In this document: positions 16,413 through 63,699 of the stretch, one piece after another | Layout of the letters: each line of letters opens with the position of its first letter | How positions within the stretch are numbered: position 1 is the first letter of the stretch | Notes under the pieces: generated by a model | The model's input: the letters and a program-made list of their open reading frames with translations, nothing else | Told to the model about the DNA's origin: nothing | Database searches by the model: none | Translations under genes and position numbers: made by a program | From: Bacteroidota bacterium | GTDB taxonomy: Bacteria > Bacteroidota > Bacteroidia > Bacteroidales > Lentimicrobiaceae | Direction: 5' to 3' | NCBI GenBank assembly: GCA_009773455.1 | Contig: WSXU01000001.1 | Span: 374,073-438,072, forward strand | DNA length: 64,000 nucleotides

Positions 16413-16506
16413 ATAGTTGGCCCGCATCTTACCCGCCACAGGCGGGGAGCCCTTATGATGCGGACTCCCACAACTTCTATTTTAAGTCCACTCAGAAAAG
16501 CAGGAA

Positions 16507-46958: not shown

Positions 46959-48038
46959 ATGAACTTTCTCCCTGTTCTAAGCTGGATCCCGGGCAATGCC
47001 AGACCTTTGGTGATTGCCGGGCCATGCAGCGCTGAAACGGAAGCACAGGTTTTACAAACAGCCCACGCACTGAAACTGATACCCCAGGTCAGGGTATTCA
47101 GAGCCGGCATCTGGAAACCACGTACCCGCCCCGGTTCCTTTGAAGGTGTTGGTTCTGCAGGACTGTTGTGGATGAAAAAGGTAAAGGAAGAGACCGGATT
47201 GCTTACCACAGTTGAAGTCGCCAAGCCGCACCATGTGCAGGAAGCCATTGAGCATGGCATTGATATTCTCTGGATTGGAGCAAGAACAGTTGTAAATCCC
47301 TTTTCCATGGAGGAGCTGGCCGAAAGCCTTTCAGGCATAGATGTTCCTGTCCTGGTTAAAAATCCGGTGAACCCTGACCTGAAACTCTGGATCGGAGCAA
47401 TTGAACGCCTTCATAAAAACGGGATACATCGTATTGCAGCCGTTCACCGGGGATTTTATCAGTATGAAAATACACGTTACCGCAATGCACCCCACTGGGA
47501 AATTCCCATTGAACTGATGCGGCAGATGCCCGGCCTGCCGGTACTCTGCGATCCAAGCCACATCGGTGGAAGCCGGAATCTTATCCAACCCATTGCCCAG
47601 CAGGCGATGGATCTTGAAATGGACGGGTTGATGATTGAGACCCACCCTGATCCTGACAAAGCCTGGACAGATGCATCGCAGCAGCTGACGCCCGGTGCCC
47701 TCAGCGATATCCTCAACGGGCTCGTACTCAGGGAGCACAAAGGAAGCCGTGAATTTGAACGCAACCTGGAAGAACTGCGCCACGAAATTGACCTGATAGA
47801 TTACGAACTGATCCGCCTGCTGGCCGAACGTATGTTAAAGGCTGAAGAGATGGGTCGTTACAAATATGCCCATAACATCACCATTCTGCAGTTACAGCGC
47901 TGGAAAGAACTGTTCGCCGACCGCATCAAAAAAGGAAGTAAAGCCGGACTCGATACCCGGTTCCTGGCTGCACTTCTTCAGTTGGTTCACGAACAATCCA
48001 TTGAAATCCAGACCAATGTGATGAATAAACTGGAATAA
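46959..48038 (+). CDS. Bifunctional DAHP synthase / chorismate mutase
   Basis: A 359-residue fusion. Residues about 15-255 are a KDPS/DAHPS-type barrel (VIAGPCSAETEAQVLQ, TRPGSFEGVGSAGLLW, VLCDPSHIGGSRNLI) that condenses erythrose 4-phosphate with phosphoenolpyruvate. Residues about 265-359 are an AroQ-type chorismate mutase (LRHEIDLIDYELIRLLAERM, KYAHNITILQLQRW). This arrangement is the Bacteroidota AroA(Q)-type enzyme, in which the mutase domain also mediates control. It commits carbon to chorismate, the substrate of MenF in this window. Its last 73 bp (47953-48025) are copied at 49354-49426. Confidence 0.95.
   Translation: MNFLPVLSWIPGNARPLVIAGPCSAETEAQVLQTAHALKLIPQVRVFRAGIWKPRTRPGSFEGVGSAGLLWMKKVKEETGLLTTVEVAKPHHVQEAIEHGIDILWIGARTVVNPFSMEELAESLSGIDVPVLVKNPVNPDLKLWIGAIERLHKNGIHRIAAVHRGFYQYENTRYRNAPHWEIPIELMRQMPGLPVLCDPSHIGGSRNLIQPIAQQAMDLEMDGLMIETHPDPDKAWTDASQQLTPGALSDILNGLVLREHKGSREFERNLEELRHEIDLIDYELIRLLAERMLKAEEMGRYKYAHNITILQLQRWKELFADRIKKGSKAGLDTRFLAALLQLVHEQSIEIQTNVMNKLE
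47953..48025 (+). repeat. 73-bp direct repeat, copy 1 (inside chorismate mutase 3' end)
   Basis: Matches 49354-49426 at 71 of 73 positions by eye, same orientation and reading frame. It covers the codons for TRFLAALLQLVHEQSIEIQ and the next few residues. Confidence 0.95.
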
Positions 48039-48214
48039 AATTAGTTTTCCTTATGATTACCCTGAGAATTGAAGGAATCTGAAATAAATGAAGCGTATCA
48101 AGACCATCCCAAGAACAAGTAAAGCAAATGCAGAATTTCACTGACCAAAAAGCAGGTCAGGAAAGTCCGTTGCCTGTTGAATCGTCACTTATCTCATTGT
48201 TATGAATAAATTAT

Positions 48215-48994
48215 TCATTCAACGTATTTATATGTGATAATTGCAGGAATGGTTCCCGGTCCTGAAAAGTCATTTCTCACAATTCTGTTCTTTTCATCGA
48301 ATTGATATGAATTTTGTATAATGTAGCTGGCATGTGAGAAACGAGTTTCCATAACAGGATTGGAACTTGCTTTACCCAGAAATGTGATACCCATGTTCTC
48401 ACGTGCAACGGTATTGGATTTGTCAGTATAATAGTCATAAAATATATATGAAGTTCCGCCCGGATATTCTACTCTGGCAGACACGATGTTATTGTTCTCA
48501 ATAGTAAAAAACGATGTTGTTTCATAAGGAGGAAGACCGGAGATTATTCTGTCGGTGATCTTCACATGAGATTCTACTATAAAGCCGCTATCATCAAATA
48601 TTCGCGAAAATTCACGGTAACTGTGCGGTTGAATATATAATTCATTAACTGCCTCACCTTTGTTGTTCAGCGTATAGATTGTTGTATCAGCAACACCCTC
48701 CGGATCTGTTAAAGGCTCTGAAATGCTTTCAATTATGCCTCCATTATGATAATTATACCTGGTTAACCTGGTTTCAATCCCATTGGTTGTTGTTTTTACC
48801 GATGCAATTCTGTTGTTTTGATCATATTGATATTCGCTAAAACTTATAACCGAGTCATTGTCAATATTTGTTGTTCTCAAAGTGACTGACTGAATCAGCG
48901 GAACGATTTTTCCTGAGAGGGTGTCATGCTCCTTTTTGCACGATACCAAAATTGATACAATGAGAGAAACTGCAATCAGTGATTTGTTTTTCAT
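48215..48994 (-). CDS. Putative lipoprotein with YD-like repeats
   Basis: A 259-residue exported protein with a lipobox (LIVSILVSCKKE), so it is expected to be lipid-anchored. The mature part contains YD/RHS-like stretches (YQYDQNNRIASVKT, YQFDEKNRIVRND) and beta-strand-rich sequence, as in the many unassigned Bacteroidota surface lipoproteins. It looks more AT-rich than its neighbours. It is the only minus-strand gene in its area and lies exactly between the two copies of the 73-bp repeat, suggesting it arrived as an insertion. Its function is unknown. Confidence 0.8.
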   Translation of the reverse strand: MKNKSLIAVSLIVSILVSCKKEHDTLSGKIVPLIQSVTLRTTNIDNDSVISFSEYQYDQNNRIASVKTTTNGIETRLTRYNYHNGGIIESISEPLTDPEGVADTTIYTLNNKGEAVNELYIQPHSYREFSRIFDDSGFIVESHVKITDRIISGLPPYETTSFFTIENNNIVSARVEYPGGTSYIFYDYYTDKSNTVARENMGITFLGKASSNPVMETRFSHASYIIQNSYQFDEKNRIVRNDFSGPGTIPAIITYKYVE

Positions 48995-49353
48995 GGCTAT
49001 TTATGTTATAGATCTGATATAATTACAGAGTGAAATAGAAATAAACATGCTTGTTAAAGCAATGCTATAATTACTGGAATTCATTCAATTGATATGGCAA
49101 TGCATTGGGGACTGATTATAGCCCTTTCCCCAAGAGGAACCGGAAAATAAACCAGCAAGGATGATTAATTCATATGATGTCATCGGGCTTCAAAGTATAT
49201 TCCACCTGAATAGCGAGATTTGAATACAAATATAATTTGTTTTAATGATTAAATTTATGTTAGGTCTCAATATTAAACAATCAGCTTTTCTGAAAATCCA
49301 ATCTGATTTTCTCATTTACAGGATAAGAATACATTGCTTCCTTTACAGGAAAA

Positions 49354-49426
49354 ATACCCGTTTCCTGGCTGCACTTCTTCAGTTGGTTCACGAACAATCC
49401 ATTGAAATTCAGACCAATGTGATGAA
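49354..49426 (+). pseudogene. 73-bp duplicate of the chorismate mutase 3' end (copy 2)
   Basis: Near-identical to 47953-48025, with two substitutions seen by eye. It lacks the rest of the gene. After the repeat the frame diverges and closes at 49451 (PDVSGK, then stop) instead of the original KLE end. Confidence 0.93.
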
Positions 49427-49520
49427 CAGGCCTGATGTTTCGGGAAAATGATCCGTACAAAGTTGCTCCCTGTTATCTATTCCGGATGTTTGCAAACAAC
49501 CATCCAACTTTCCTTTACAC

Positions 49521-49528
49521 TATCTTTG
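49521..49528 (+). promoter_or_regulatory. -7 promoter box of hflX
   Basis: TATCTTTG, an exact match, 25 bp upstream of the ATG at 49554. Confidence 0.65.
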
Positions 49529-49553
49529 CACCTCCAAATTCAAATTTTTACGG

Positions 49554-50738
49554 ATGTTTGATAATTCCCCGATTACTGAGACTGCCGTTTTGGTCGGACT
49601 GATCACCGGACGCCAGGATGAGGCCAGGGTAACCGAGACACTTGATGAACTTGACTTTCTTTTTGACACTGCCGGTGGAACTGCCGTCAGGCGTTTTGTT
49701 CAGAAACTGGATAAGCCTGATACACGGACTTTCGTTGGTTCCGGAAAGCTGGAGGAAATCAAAGCCTATATTAAGACTGAAAATACCGGAACTGTTGTAT
49801 TTGACGATGAATTAAGCCCATCGCAGCTTCGGAACATTGAGAAGGAACTGGAATGTAAGGTTCTTGACCGTACCACCCTGATCCTGGATATTTTCGCGAA
49901 AAGGGCCCGTACAGCCACTGCACGCACCCAGGTAGAACTTGCTCAGTTACAGTATATGTTGCCGCGGTTGTCGAGGATGTGGACCCACCTTGAAAAACAA
50001 CGTGGAGGGATTGGTATGCGTGGCCCAGGTGAGAAGGAAATAGAAACCGACCGCCGCATCATCCGCGATAAAATATCGTTGCTTAAGGAGAAACTGAAGG
50101 ACATCGACAAGCAAAAGATCACACAGCGCAGCGGCAGGGAAAAGCTGGTCAGGGTCGCCCTCATCGGCTATACGAATGTAGGTAAATCAACCCTGATGAA
50201 CCTGCTAAGTAAATCAGAGGTTTTTGCCGAAAACAAACTTTTTGCCACCCTCGACACAACTGTGCGTAAGGTTGTTATTGATAATCTCCCCTTCCTCCTG
50301 ACCGATACGGTCGGATTTATCAGAAAATTACCGCACAGCCTGGTCGAATCCTTTAAATCGACCCTTGATGAAGTAAGGGAAGCAGATCTGCTGTTGCATG
50401 TTGTTGATATTTCACATCCCGGGTTTGAAGACCAGATTGATGTGGTGAATCAGACACTGGCTGAGATCAGGGTTGCTGACAAACCGGTAATGATGGTATT
50501 TAATAAGGTGGACGCCTATTCATTTATTGAAAAGGAGGACGGAGACCTTAGCCCTGCTACCAGGGAAAATGTTACCCTCGAAGAGTTAAAAAGAACCTGG
50601 ATCGCCAAAGTGAACAATCCGGCACAGTTTATTTCTGCCACAAAAAAACTGCATCTGGAAGAATTCAGGGAAGAACTCTACAAGTCTATCCATGATATTC
50701 ACGTTATCAGATATCCCTATAATAAATTATTATATTGA
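49554..50738 (+). CDS. hflX: Ribosome-associated GTPase HflX
   Basis: A 394-residue OBG-like GTPase that splits stalled or hibernating 70S ribosomes. The N-terminal HflX domain (TRTFVGSGKLEEIKAYI, DELSPSQLRNIE) leads into the coiled-coil linker with the GPGEKEIETDRR motif. The G domain follows: P loop GYTNVGKST, G3 DTVGFIRKLPHSLVESF, G4 NKVD. The length is typical. It has its own promoter; the T9SS cargo gene downstream is 170 bp away across an AT-rich gap. Confidence 0.97.
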   Translation: MFDNSPITETAVLVGLITGRQDEARVTETLDELDFLFDTAGGTAVRRFVQKLDKPDTRTFVGSGKLEEIKAYIKTENTGTVVFDDELSPSQLRNIEKELECKVLDRTTLILDIFAKRARTATARTQVELAQLQYMLPRLSRMWTHLEKQRGGIGMRGPGEKEIETDRRIIRDKISLLKEKLKDIDKQKITQRSGREKLVRVALIGYTNVGKSTLMNLLSKSEVFAENKLFATLDTTVRKVVIDNLPFLLTDTVGFIRKLPHSLVESFKSTLDEVREADLLLHVVDISHPGFEDQIDVVNQTLAEIRVADKPVMMVFNKVDAYSFIEKEDGDLSPATRENVTLEELKRTWIAKVNNPAQFISATKKLHLEEFREELYKSIHDIHVIRYPYNKLLY

Positions 50739-61335: not shown

Positions 61336-62187
61336 ATGAAAGACATTCTTGTTGCCATCGATTTCTCGAAGGGCTCGCTTCATGCCCTGGATTACGCTAT
61401 AGAATTCGCCAATCACGTTAAGAGTAATGTGATCATGGTGTGGGTTGACAGCCATATAAATCATGATTTCACTTTTTCCTCCGAAGGGAATGAATTCCGT
61501 GATGAAGCCAACAAGAATCTTGATGAAATCATGAAAGCCAACAAGGGCAGACTGAAACACGGAAAGCTCACTTTCAAACTCCGGAAAGGGAAAGTATATC
61601 AGGAAATTGCAACGCAGGCAAGGTTAACCGATGCCTCATTGATTATTGCCGGCACCCATGGTGTTACAGGCTATGAAGAATTCTGGATCGGGAGTAATGC
61701 ATACAGAATTGTCTCCTATGCCCCCTGTCCTGTGATCACGGTAAGGCATGATTTTGAAATCAAACCGGCCGGAATTACCAGTATCATACTGCCTGTTGAC
61801 AGCACCCTGGACACACGGCAGAAAGTTCCCATCACTGTTCAGATTGCCAAAGCGTTCGGCGCTGACGTTCATCTTCTGACCCTTTACACCACCACCATAA
61901 AAGTAATGCAACGGAAAGTTGATAATTCTGCCAGGCAGGTTCAGAAATTCCTGGAGGAAGCGGGTGTAAATTATAGTACCGAAAGCATGATGGCAGATAA
62001 CATTACAAATGCTGCCATAGAATATGCCGGAAGGGTTGATGCCGATCTGATCGCCATTATGACTGAACAGGAGACAACAGCCTCCAACATATTGTTAGGC
62101 CCTTTTGCACAGCAAATGGTAAATTATTCCCCGGTTCCCGTGCTTAGTATTCAACCCAAGGAAATAATTGCCATCTCAACCCGTTAA
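61336..62187 (+). CDS. Universal stress protein with two UspA domains
   Basis: A 283-residue cytosolic protein of two tandem UspA domains (about 1-140 and 150-283). The first has the ATP-binding pattern IIAGTHGVTGYEEFWIGSNA and later APCPVITVR (GxxG-x9-GS type). The second ends in LLGPFAQQMVNYSPVPVLSI, with a weaker nucleotide loop. Tandem-domain members often act as ATP-dependent stress or starvation regulators. It has the same length and layout as the protein at 62848, so the two are paralogues flanking a SPOR-domain gene. Confidence 0.93.
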   Translation: MKDILVAIDFSKGSLHALDYAIEFANHVKSNVIMVWVDSHINHDFTFSSEGNEFRDEANKNLDEIMKANKGRLKHGKLTFKLRKGKVYQEIATQARLTDASLIIAGTHGVTGYEEFWIGSNAYRIVSYAPCPVITVRHDFEIKPAGITSIILPVDSTLDTRQKVPITVQIAKAFGADVHLLTLYTTTIKVMQRKVDNSARQVQKFLEEAGVNYSTESMMADNITNAAIEYAGRVDADLIAIMTEQETTASNILLGPFAQQMVNYSPVPVLSIQPKEIIAISTR

Positions 62188-62847: not shown

Positions 62848-63699
62848 ATGAAAACGATCATCTCAGCAATCGATTTTTCCGATTGCTCCATCAACGCCCT
62901 CGAGCACGCGGTAAGCATAGCAAAGAGTTCCGGTTCGGATCTTCTGATGCTTTGGGTGAATAACCCTTATACAACAAAAACCATTCTGTCGTCAGATATG
63001 TCAGACGATCTTGTTGAAGAGGTCGAACATCAGTTTACCAGGCTGATCAGTAAATACGGGCCGGAACTAAAGGATTCCAAAATAGATTATATCATCAGGG
63101 AAGGTAAAGTTTATAAAGAGGTCGTAAATCAGGCAAGGGAATCCGAAGCATGGCTGATCGTTGCCGGCACCCATGGATCTTCAGGGTTTGAAGAACTCTG
63201 GATGGGTAGCAATGCCAACAGGATTGTAACCTCTGCACCCTGTCCGATCATTACAATTCGCTCAGGCATTGAAATCAGCCGGAACCTCGAAAAGATCGTT
63301 ATGCCCATGGACAGCACCATGGAGACAAGACAAAAGGTGCCTTTTACCTGCGAACTGGCCCAGGCCTTTGATGCTGAAGTTCATGTTCTGGCGGTGTACA
63401 CGACTATTGTGGATGACGTACGCGGGAGGGTATTGAGTTACGCAAAACAGGCAGCGAAATACCTGAAGGAAAACGGCGTAAAACATCAGATTGTTGAAGT
63501 TGAAGCTGAAAACCTGAGTACCACCACCATTGAATACGCAAAAAAGATTGATGCCAACCTCATTTCAATCATGACTGAACAGGAAAAAACAGCCATCAAT
63601 CTCTGGCTTGGCCCGTATGCCCAGCAAATGGTGCACCATTCACCTATTCCTGTCTTAAGTATTCACCCGAAAGAAATTCTGATTTCGATGGGGTATTGA
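62848..63699 (+). CDS. Universal stress protein with two UspA domains (paralogue)
   Basis: A 283-residue twin of the protein at 61336. Shared landmarks are AIDFSDCSINALEHA, IVAGTHGSSGFEELWMGSNA, the DSTMETRQKVPFTCELAQAF segment after the first domain, and LWLGPYAQQMVHHSPIPVLSI at the end. An intergenic gap of 246 bp separates it from the SPOR gene. The pair appears to come from an old gene duplication. It is followed by heptad repeats and a terminator. Confidence 0.93.
   Translation: MKTIISAIDFSDCSINALEHAVSIAKSSGSDLLMLWVNNPYTTKTILSSDMSDDLVEEVEHQFTRLISKYGPELKDSKIDYIIREGKVYKEVVNQARESEAWLIVAGTHGSSGFEELWMGSNANRIVTSAPCPIITIRSGIEISRNLEKIVMPMDSTMETRQKVPFTCELAQAFDAEVHVLAVYTTIVDDVRGRVLSYAKQAAKYLKENGVKHQIVEVEAENLSTTTIEYAKKIDANLISIMTEQEKTAINLWLGPYAQQMVHHSPIPVLSIHPKEILISMGY

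Follow-up and report, generated by a model that had tools for sequence, protein, structure and literature searches.

Probable Displacement of an aro Gene End by a Young Insertion in a Lentimicrobiaceae Genome

Introduction

Why does the 3′ end of a housekeeping gene occur twice in a chromosome, in the same orientation, with unrelated DNA between the copies? The question is raised by a locus in the 64,000-nucleotide stretch of a Lentimicrobiaceae genome (G000) analyzed here, hereafter the window. The gene for a DAHP synthase/chorismate mutase fusion (aro; 46959..48038, + strand; PF00793 and PF01817) is intact and is followed by a second copy of part of its own end. Upstream of aro is asnS, on the opposite strand, and downstream of the second copy is hflX (49554..50738, + strand; TIGR03156). 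The contig that holds the window is 502 kb long and belongs to a draft assembly of 159 contigs and 95.4% completeness. Among named relatives, the closest one found is L083, a metagenome-assembled genome of Lentimicrobium, with an aro protein that is 82% identical.

Results

Structure and age of the repeat

The direct repeat is 73 bp long. Copy 1 (47953..48025) and copy 2 (49354..49426) are both on the + strand and are identical at 71 of 73 positions, and an earlier note on this DNA, which gave these coordinates, a common orientation, and 2 differences by eye, was exact in all of them. When the window is compared with itself, the pair has an E value of 2e-28, too low to reflect chance, and ranks second after a diverged 595-bp pair elsewhere. 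Similarity ends sharply at both edges, with outer flanks identical at 7 and 6 of 30 positions. The mismatches, at repeat positions 8 (G/T) and 56 (C/T), are both at synonymous third-codon positions. Copy 1 is in frame with aro. The earlier note had it end together with the coding region; it does lie within the 3′ end of the gene, but 13 further bases, stop codon included, come after it, and aro ends in MNKLE and a stop. The reading frame of copy 2 continues as MNRPDVSGK and a stop, running on to RPDVSGK instead. The inserted segment between aro and hflX amounts to 1,401 bp, consisting of 1,328 bp of unique DNA and one 73-bp copy.

Divergence among relatives bears on the age of the event. In 15 relatives, 46–64 of the 73 positions (63–88%) are identical to either copy, versus 71 of 73 (97%) between the copies, and the event therefore seems to postdate the divergence from every species sampled. 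Relative to the genus, this supports the earlier suggestion of a recent event. Codons that cover the mismatched positions vary among the same 15 relatives (CGT in seven, CGG in four, and others in four at position 8; ATT in seven, ATA in seven, and ATC in one at position 56), so the mismatches cannot place a crossover.

Relatives without the insert and the order of the copies

Relatives in which aro is followed directly by hflX, proposed earlier as a check, are common: 11 of 18 same-genus genomes have this arrangement and lack the insert. The distance from the aro stop to the hflX start is 33–138 bp in the nine of these 11 loci that were measured. The seven genomes without an adjacent hflX are kept in the denominator (G015, G010, G006, G012, G017, G018, and G004). 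In two of them an empty arrangement is unobservable, as aro is cut by the contig end (G015) or the contig stops 1.9 kb downstream without reaching hflX (G010). In G006, G012, G017, and G018, hflX is absent from the 15–17.4 kb fetched downstream of aro. In G004, aro and hflX are separated by 4.6 kb (L037; G004:C540, 2604-7211) with ORFs that include ones of 272 and 889 aa and without an aro-end repeat, indicating that the spacer accepts insertions.

Flanking sequence suggests which copy is the original. We compared flanks to the aro–hflX spacers of the nine hflX-adjacent loci with known coordinates, which leaves out G002 and G003. The right flank of copy 2, the native hflX spacer (49427..49553, + strand), is matched by the sequence before hflX in six of the nine relatives (at scores reached by at most 1 of 500 shuffles). 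The three that lack the spacer sequence (L046, L047, and L048) are the more distant ones, and the six that share it are not six independent witnesses, because they are in part close kin. The shared spacer includes a TATCTTTGC-type sequence, which we take to be promoter-like on the model of Bacteroidota promoters. DNA to the right of copy 1 and to the left of copy 2 has no significant spacer match in any of the nine relatives (lowest shuffle counts of 16/200 and 25/200). Since relatives match the native spacer only on the right-hand side of copy 2, that copy probably represents the old end, with copy 1 as its replacement. Judged from these alignments, copy 2 is most likely the displaced original end, and the new DNA would be the 1,401 bp to its left. 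We also considered copy 2 as the remnant of a decayed tandem paralogue and rejected this, since homology does not extend past the 73 bp and copy 2 precedes the native spacer.

The inserted DNA and its gene

The unique DNA (48026..49353) is single copy in the genome, and a 34-bp match in G013 is the only one across 18 same-genus genomes. Its GC content is 35.0%, versus a mean of 45.2% for 2,564 equally long sliding windows across 856 kb of the same genome, in line with the earlier impression that DNA between the copies is AT-richer. As few as 2.6% of the 2,564 windows are as GC-poor, and none of these is among those inside the 64-kb window. The GC content of the insert is unusual, not unique.

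The insert has a lone gene, predicted to encode a 259-aa putative lipoprotein (48215..48994, − strand), which the earlier note had already listed at these positions as a lipoprotein gene on the opposite strand; the lipoprotein-type signal was judged by eye. All remaining ORFs in the insert are shorter than 75 aa. The homologue search places the protein as distant kin of YD/RHS-repeat-like lipoproteins of the order. Across the 18 genomes of the genus there is one weak match (G003; 26% identity, E = 3.7e-5), and of 392 other genomes in the order sample, 6 have weak homologues. Four of five homologues scanned gave RHS_repeat matches (E up to 1), of which one exceeds the Pfam cut-off and another equals it. 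The lipoprotein itself has no family match above cut-off, to RHS_repeat or to any mobile-element family. The gene is probably an ordinary passenger.

Other identities for the insert were considered. Defence or phage cargo was rejected, as the lipoprotein lacks a PADLOC or PHROGs match. In phage, plasmid, and viral collections, the repeat, insert, and lipoprotein have no relatives (one of the searches used an exact 23-base pattern). A known RNA in or next to the insert was likewise rejected, with no Rfam match up to E = 1.

Recombinases and other occupants of the site

The direct repeats at aro are att-like in that they flank the insert and one of them restores the gene. The earlier note saw no integrase, and none emerged from a search of the 502-kb contig with the tyrosine recombinase profile PF00589. 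G006 is the only member of the genus with a PF00589 match on the aro contig and no more than 1 Mb from the gene; this match is weak and ∼19 kb away, and many of the contigs are short. The insert has no transposase-like ORF, and its best terminal inverted repeat is not significant (29 of 300 shuffles are as good).

Different cargo bounded by the same repeat, another check put forward in the earlier note, was not encountered. No second aro-end copy is present at 15 other same-genus aro loci, over a downstream reach of ∼1.9 to 17 kb. The aro C-terminus has a match in 170 of the 393 genomes sampled from the order, and four, G000 among them, have two matches. Those of the other three are probably full genes, because both matches are in frames of 363–382 aa. 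None of the 169 other matching genomes has an orphan aro end, in a search that would miss diverged ends of distant genomes (∼45% identity). Of the earlier proposal that an element integrated at a gene 3′ end, one part is thus upheld by the 11 of 18 genomes and by the spacers of six of nine relatives: there was an insertion, the gene was restored, and the old end lies on the far side. The integrating element itself finds no such backing, given the lack of a tyrosine recombinase on the contig, of a second occupant, and of a significant terminal inverted repeat.

Direct repeats elsewhere in the genus

We surveyed 1.33 Mb (856 kb of G000, 400 kb of G001, and 77 kb of four others) for direct repeats of at least 88% identity that are shorter than 400 bp and 200 bp to 20 kb apart. 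The survey yielded 31 pairs, the aro repeat included. Only the aro pair copies the 3′ end of a gene of at least 200 aa around unrelated DNA, where 13 + 2 pairs were looked at directly and the others were judged by ORF columns alone. An IS accounts for one pair. A few others reach into the 3′ end of short frames (102–128 aa); most of these are in repeats with 6–15 matches in the sample, and one is a two-copy repeat of a tRNA end (L168, below). Another pair joins two neighboring paralogues of G001 (511 and 523 aa) with a common 3′ end of 223 bp (G001:C1, about 223802-224024 and 225582-225804; 91%), perhaps a common secretion-signal domain or gene conversion. A stricter filter across 80 wider loci (1.2 Mb) yielded two pairs, one intergenic (L088) and one seen as sequence only (L101).

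Several repeats of G000 are described here in their own right. One (L173; G000:C12, 180332-181443) is outwardly like the aro insert, with just two 102-bp copies (90%) around 907 bp of 29% GC and a lone 189-aa ORF, but seems to be intergenic. On the same contig, a two-copy repeat (L168; 93120-93647; 91% over ∼150 bp, 228 bp apart) takes in an apparent tRNA gene 3′ end and the start of a small ORF, presumably GIY-YIG-like. At G000:C49, 127280-128446 (L069), a 185-aa ORF that we take to be REP-associated transposase-like lies between 129-bp GC-rich repeats with nine matches in 856 kb. A 47-bp GC-rich repeat, 94% identical, is shared by window positions 16416-16462 and G000:C49 360889-360935, ∼29.5 kb apart on the contig. 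Window positions 61580-62165 and 63095-63677 form a diverged direct repeat, nearly 600 bp long and with 65% identity.

Elements of the IS1634 family show what transposition produces in this genus. In G001, one that the survey brought up is inside a gene (L204; G001:C1, about 561868-564277), between the two copies of a perfect 390-bp direct repeat, and its inverted ends lie immediately inward of those copies. Its transposase scores 304.8 bits with NF033559 versus a cut-off of 100, and the family label was tested on this protein only. A copy in G013 (L205; G013:C124) has an identical transposase and a 41-bp direct repeat. Two relatives of 42% identity, in G002 and G018, have repeats of 38 and 17 bp (L206/L207), and two more distant copies in G018 (L210 and L211) are without a clear flanking repeat. 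Of the six near-full-length copies of IS1634-like elements that were tested in the genus, four therefore have long direct repeats of 17–390 bp, and 73 bp falls within this range. Because such elements make long repeats of variable length, the 73-bp repeat alone is no proof of an attachment site. The G000 genome has no match to the transposase of G001 and G013 and the insert is without inverted ends, so this route is unlikely here. Repeats of 8–514 bp are given for IS1549 and IS1634 in the cited passages of PMC2266710, which give 5–6 bp as usual for the family and state that there was no mechanistic model for the long repeats at that date; PMC8024623, where it treats a Geobacillus member, reports 6 bp. 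An identical transposase with very different repeat lengths in two species offers a case for the question left open in those passages of PMC2266710.

Discussion

Explanations of the insertion

The structure at aro is most likely a real, young, and single insertion. How it arose is less certain, and we give about an even chance to a single homology-anchored event that placed apparently foreign DNA at the aro 3′ end. The incoming DNA would already have included a near-identical copy of that gene end, derived from the same or a very close lineage. Recombination through the shared stretch could have been a single crossover of a circular molecule or, alternatively, could have combined pairing of homologous DNA at one edge with an illegitimate join at the other. 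The new copy completes the aro frame with a few different last residues, and the other copy is still joined to the native hflX spacer; the old end would have been shunted downstream rather than deleted. The insertion is probably neutral, since it leaves aro with an end and hflX with the upstream region it had. No donor with aro followed by this insert is among the 18 same-genus genomes, though one may be unsampled, and capture through homology is therefore something that we infer. A length of 73 bp is short for RecA-type recombination, and a gene 3′ end is a typical choice of integrases too.

The main rival is the relic of an integrase-driven island, which we regard as possible but doubtful. 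The insert would be a shrunken relic or a satellite mobilized in trans, the 73-bp copies would be attL and attR, and the element would have brought the replacement gene end. Position at a gene end, a restored frame, a displaced old end, and AT-rich cargo all fit, and decayed integrative elements (CIMEs) without integration and transfer genes are described as retaining attL and attR in the cited part of PMC5704250. But the 502-kb contig is devoid of PF00589, the only such match near aro in the genus is the weak one of G006 ∼19 kb away, the 4.6-kb insert of G004 occupies the same spacer without an aro-end repeat, and the 169 other matching genomes yielded no orphan aro end, diverged ends aside. 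A broader version, in which the locus is the first example of a genus-wide class of minimal single-gene islets that bring a replacement 3′ end for a housekeeping gene, use a recombinase in trans, and have siblings in unsampled strains, strikes us as highly improbable. Transposition would make the 73 bp a long and variable target duplication of the IS1634/IS1549 type and the insert a nonautonomous or decayed product. The repeats at four of six IS1634-like copies in the genus, and the 8–514 bp of the passages cited from PMC2266710, are consistent with this, but the insert is without a significant terminal inverted repeat or transposase-like ORF, the genome is without this transposase, L210 and L211 lack a clear repeat, and the lengths usual for the family (5–6 bp in PMC2266710 and 6 bp for Geobacillus in PMC8024623, as far as the passages cited go) are much shorter; we consider it quite improbable.

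Two further accounts are improbable to a similar degree. Misassembly could have joined two strain variants of aro or spliced in a foreign piece, and assemblers do fail at near-identical repeats, in a draft that here has 159 contigs. A random misjoin would not produce the order asnS, aro, and hflX that is seen in relatives, the insert is single copy, and copy 2 is joined directly to the native spacer. The other account begins with a tandem duplication that decayed and had its middle replaced later, the second reading offered in the earlier note, or with a replication template switch that put in unrelated DNA before resuming 73 bp upstream. A template switch produces such a repeat structure without a mobile element, but DNA after copy 1 is unlike the aro–hflX spacer of relatives, copy 2 is without homology upstream of the 73 bp, which also speaks against the duplication, and the genome, in an assembly that is 95.4% complete, has no second copy of the insert as a source for a switch. 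Homology-anchored insertion remains our preferred reading, and the locus is a clean snapshot of how a housekeeping gene can take in foreign DNA with neither neighbor evidently harmed. With one event and no recombinase in sight, it adds little to what is known.

Comparison with known systems

The insertion is of a kind already known, and e14 at icd is a precedent for it. Known systems resemble it in different respects. CIMEs, in the part of PMC5704250 cited, share cargo between two sequence copies at a gene end and the lack of a recombinase, but no related intact element, second repeat-bounded occupant, or nearby tyrosine recombinase was found for the aro insert. IS1634 and IS1549, in the cited passages of PMC2266710, share direct repeats of such length around an insertion, seen in this genus too; the aro insert differs in lacking a transposase and significant inverted ends. 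Homology-facilitated illegitimate recombination, proposed for the displacement of T6SS effectors (PMC5361080) and described with small variable segments (PMC2884548) in the passages cited, is alike in that one homologous anchor imports unrelated DNA and the resident sequence, in one case the 3′ end of an effector gene, is pushed back. Unlike the aro insert, the T6SS loci of those passages carry effector and immunity genes.

In position and sequence, an old 3′ end downstream of a restored gene is a likeness to the displacement of C-termini at rhs loci. There, according to the relevant part of Jackson et al. (2009; PMC2935791), a new gene end and downstream DNA recombine in via shared sequence and shunt the old end to a silent downstream position, and the proposed route is a single crossover with a circular intermediate. 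The rhs ends of that account are variable and in arrays, whereas aro shows a single event that leaves the protein end almost as it was, with a shared stretch of only 73 bp. A donor with the same gene core and a new end was not found among the 18 same-genus genomes. A gene displaced in the rhs manner would belong to a family with interchangeable C-terminal tips, whereas aro encodes a conserved enzyme, the 3′ end of which aligns across the genus members examined. Because aro has no such tips, we suggest that its insertion works like rhs displacement but is not a member of that system.
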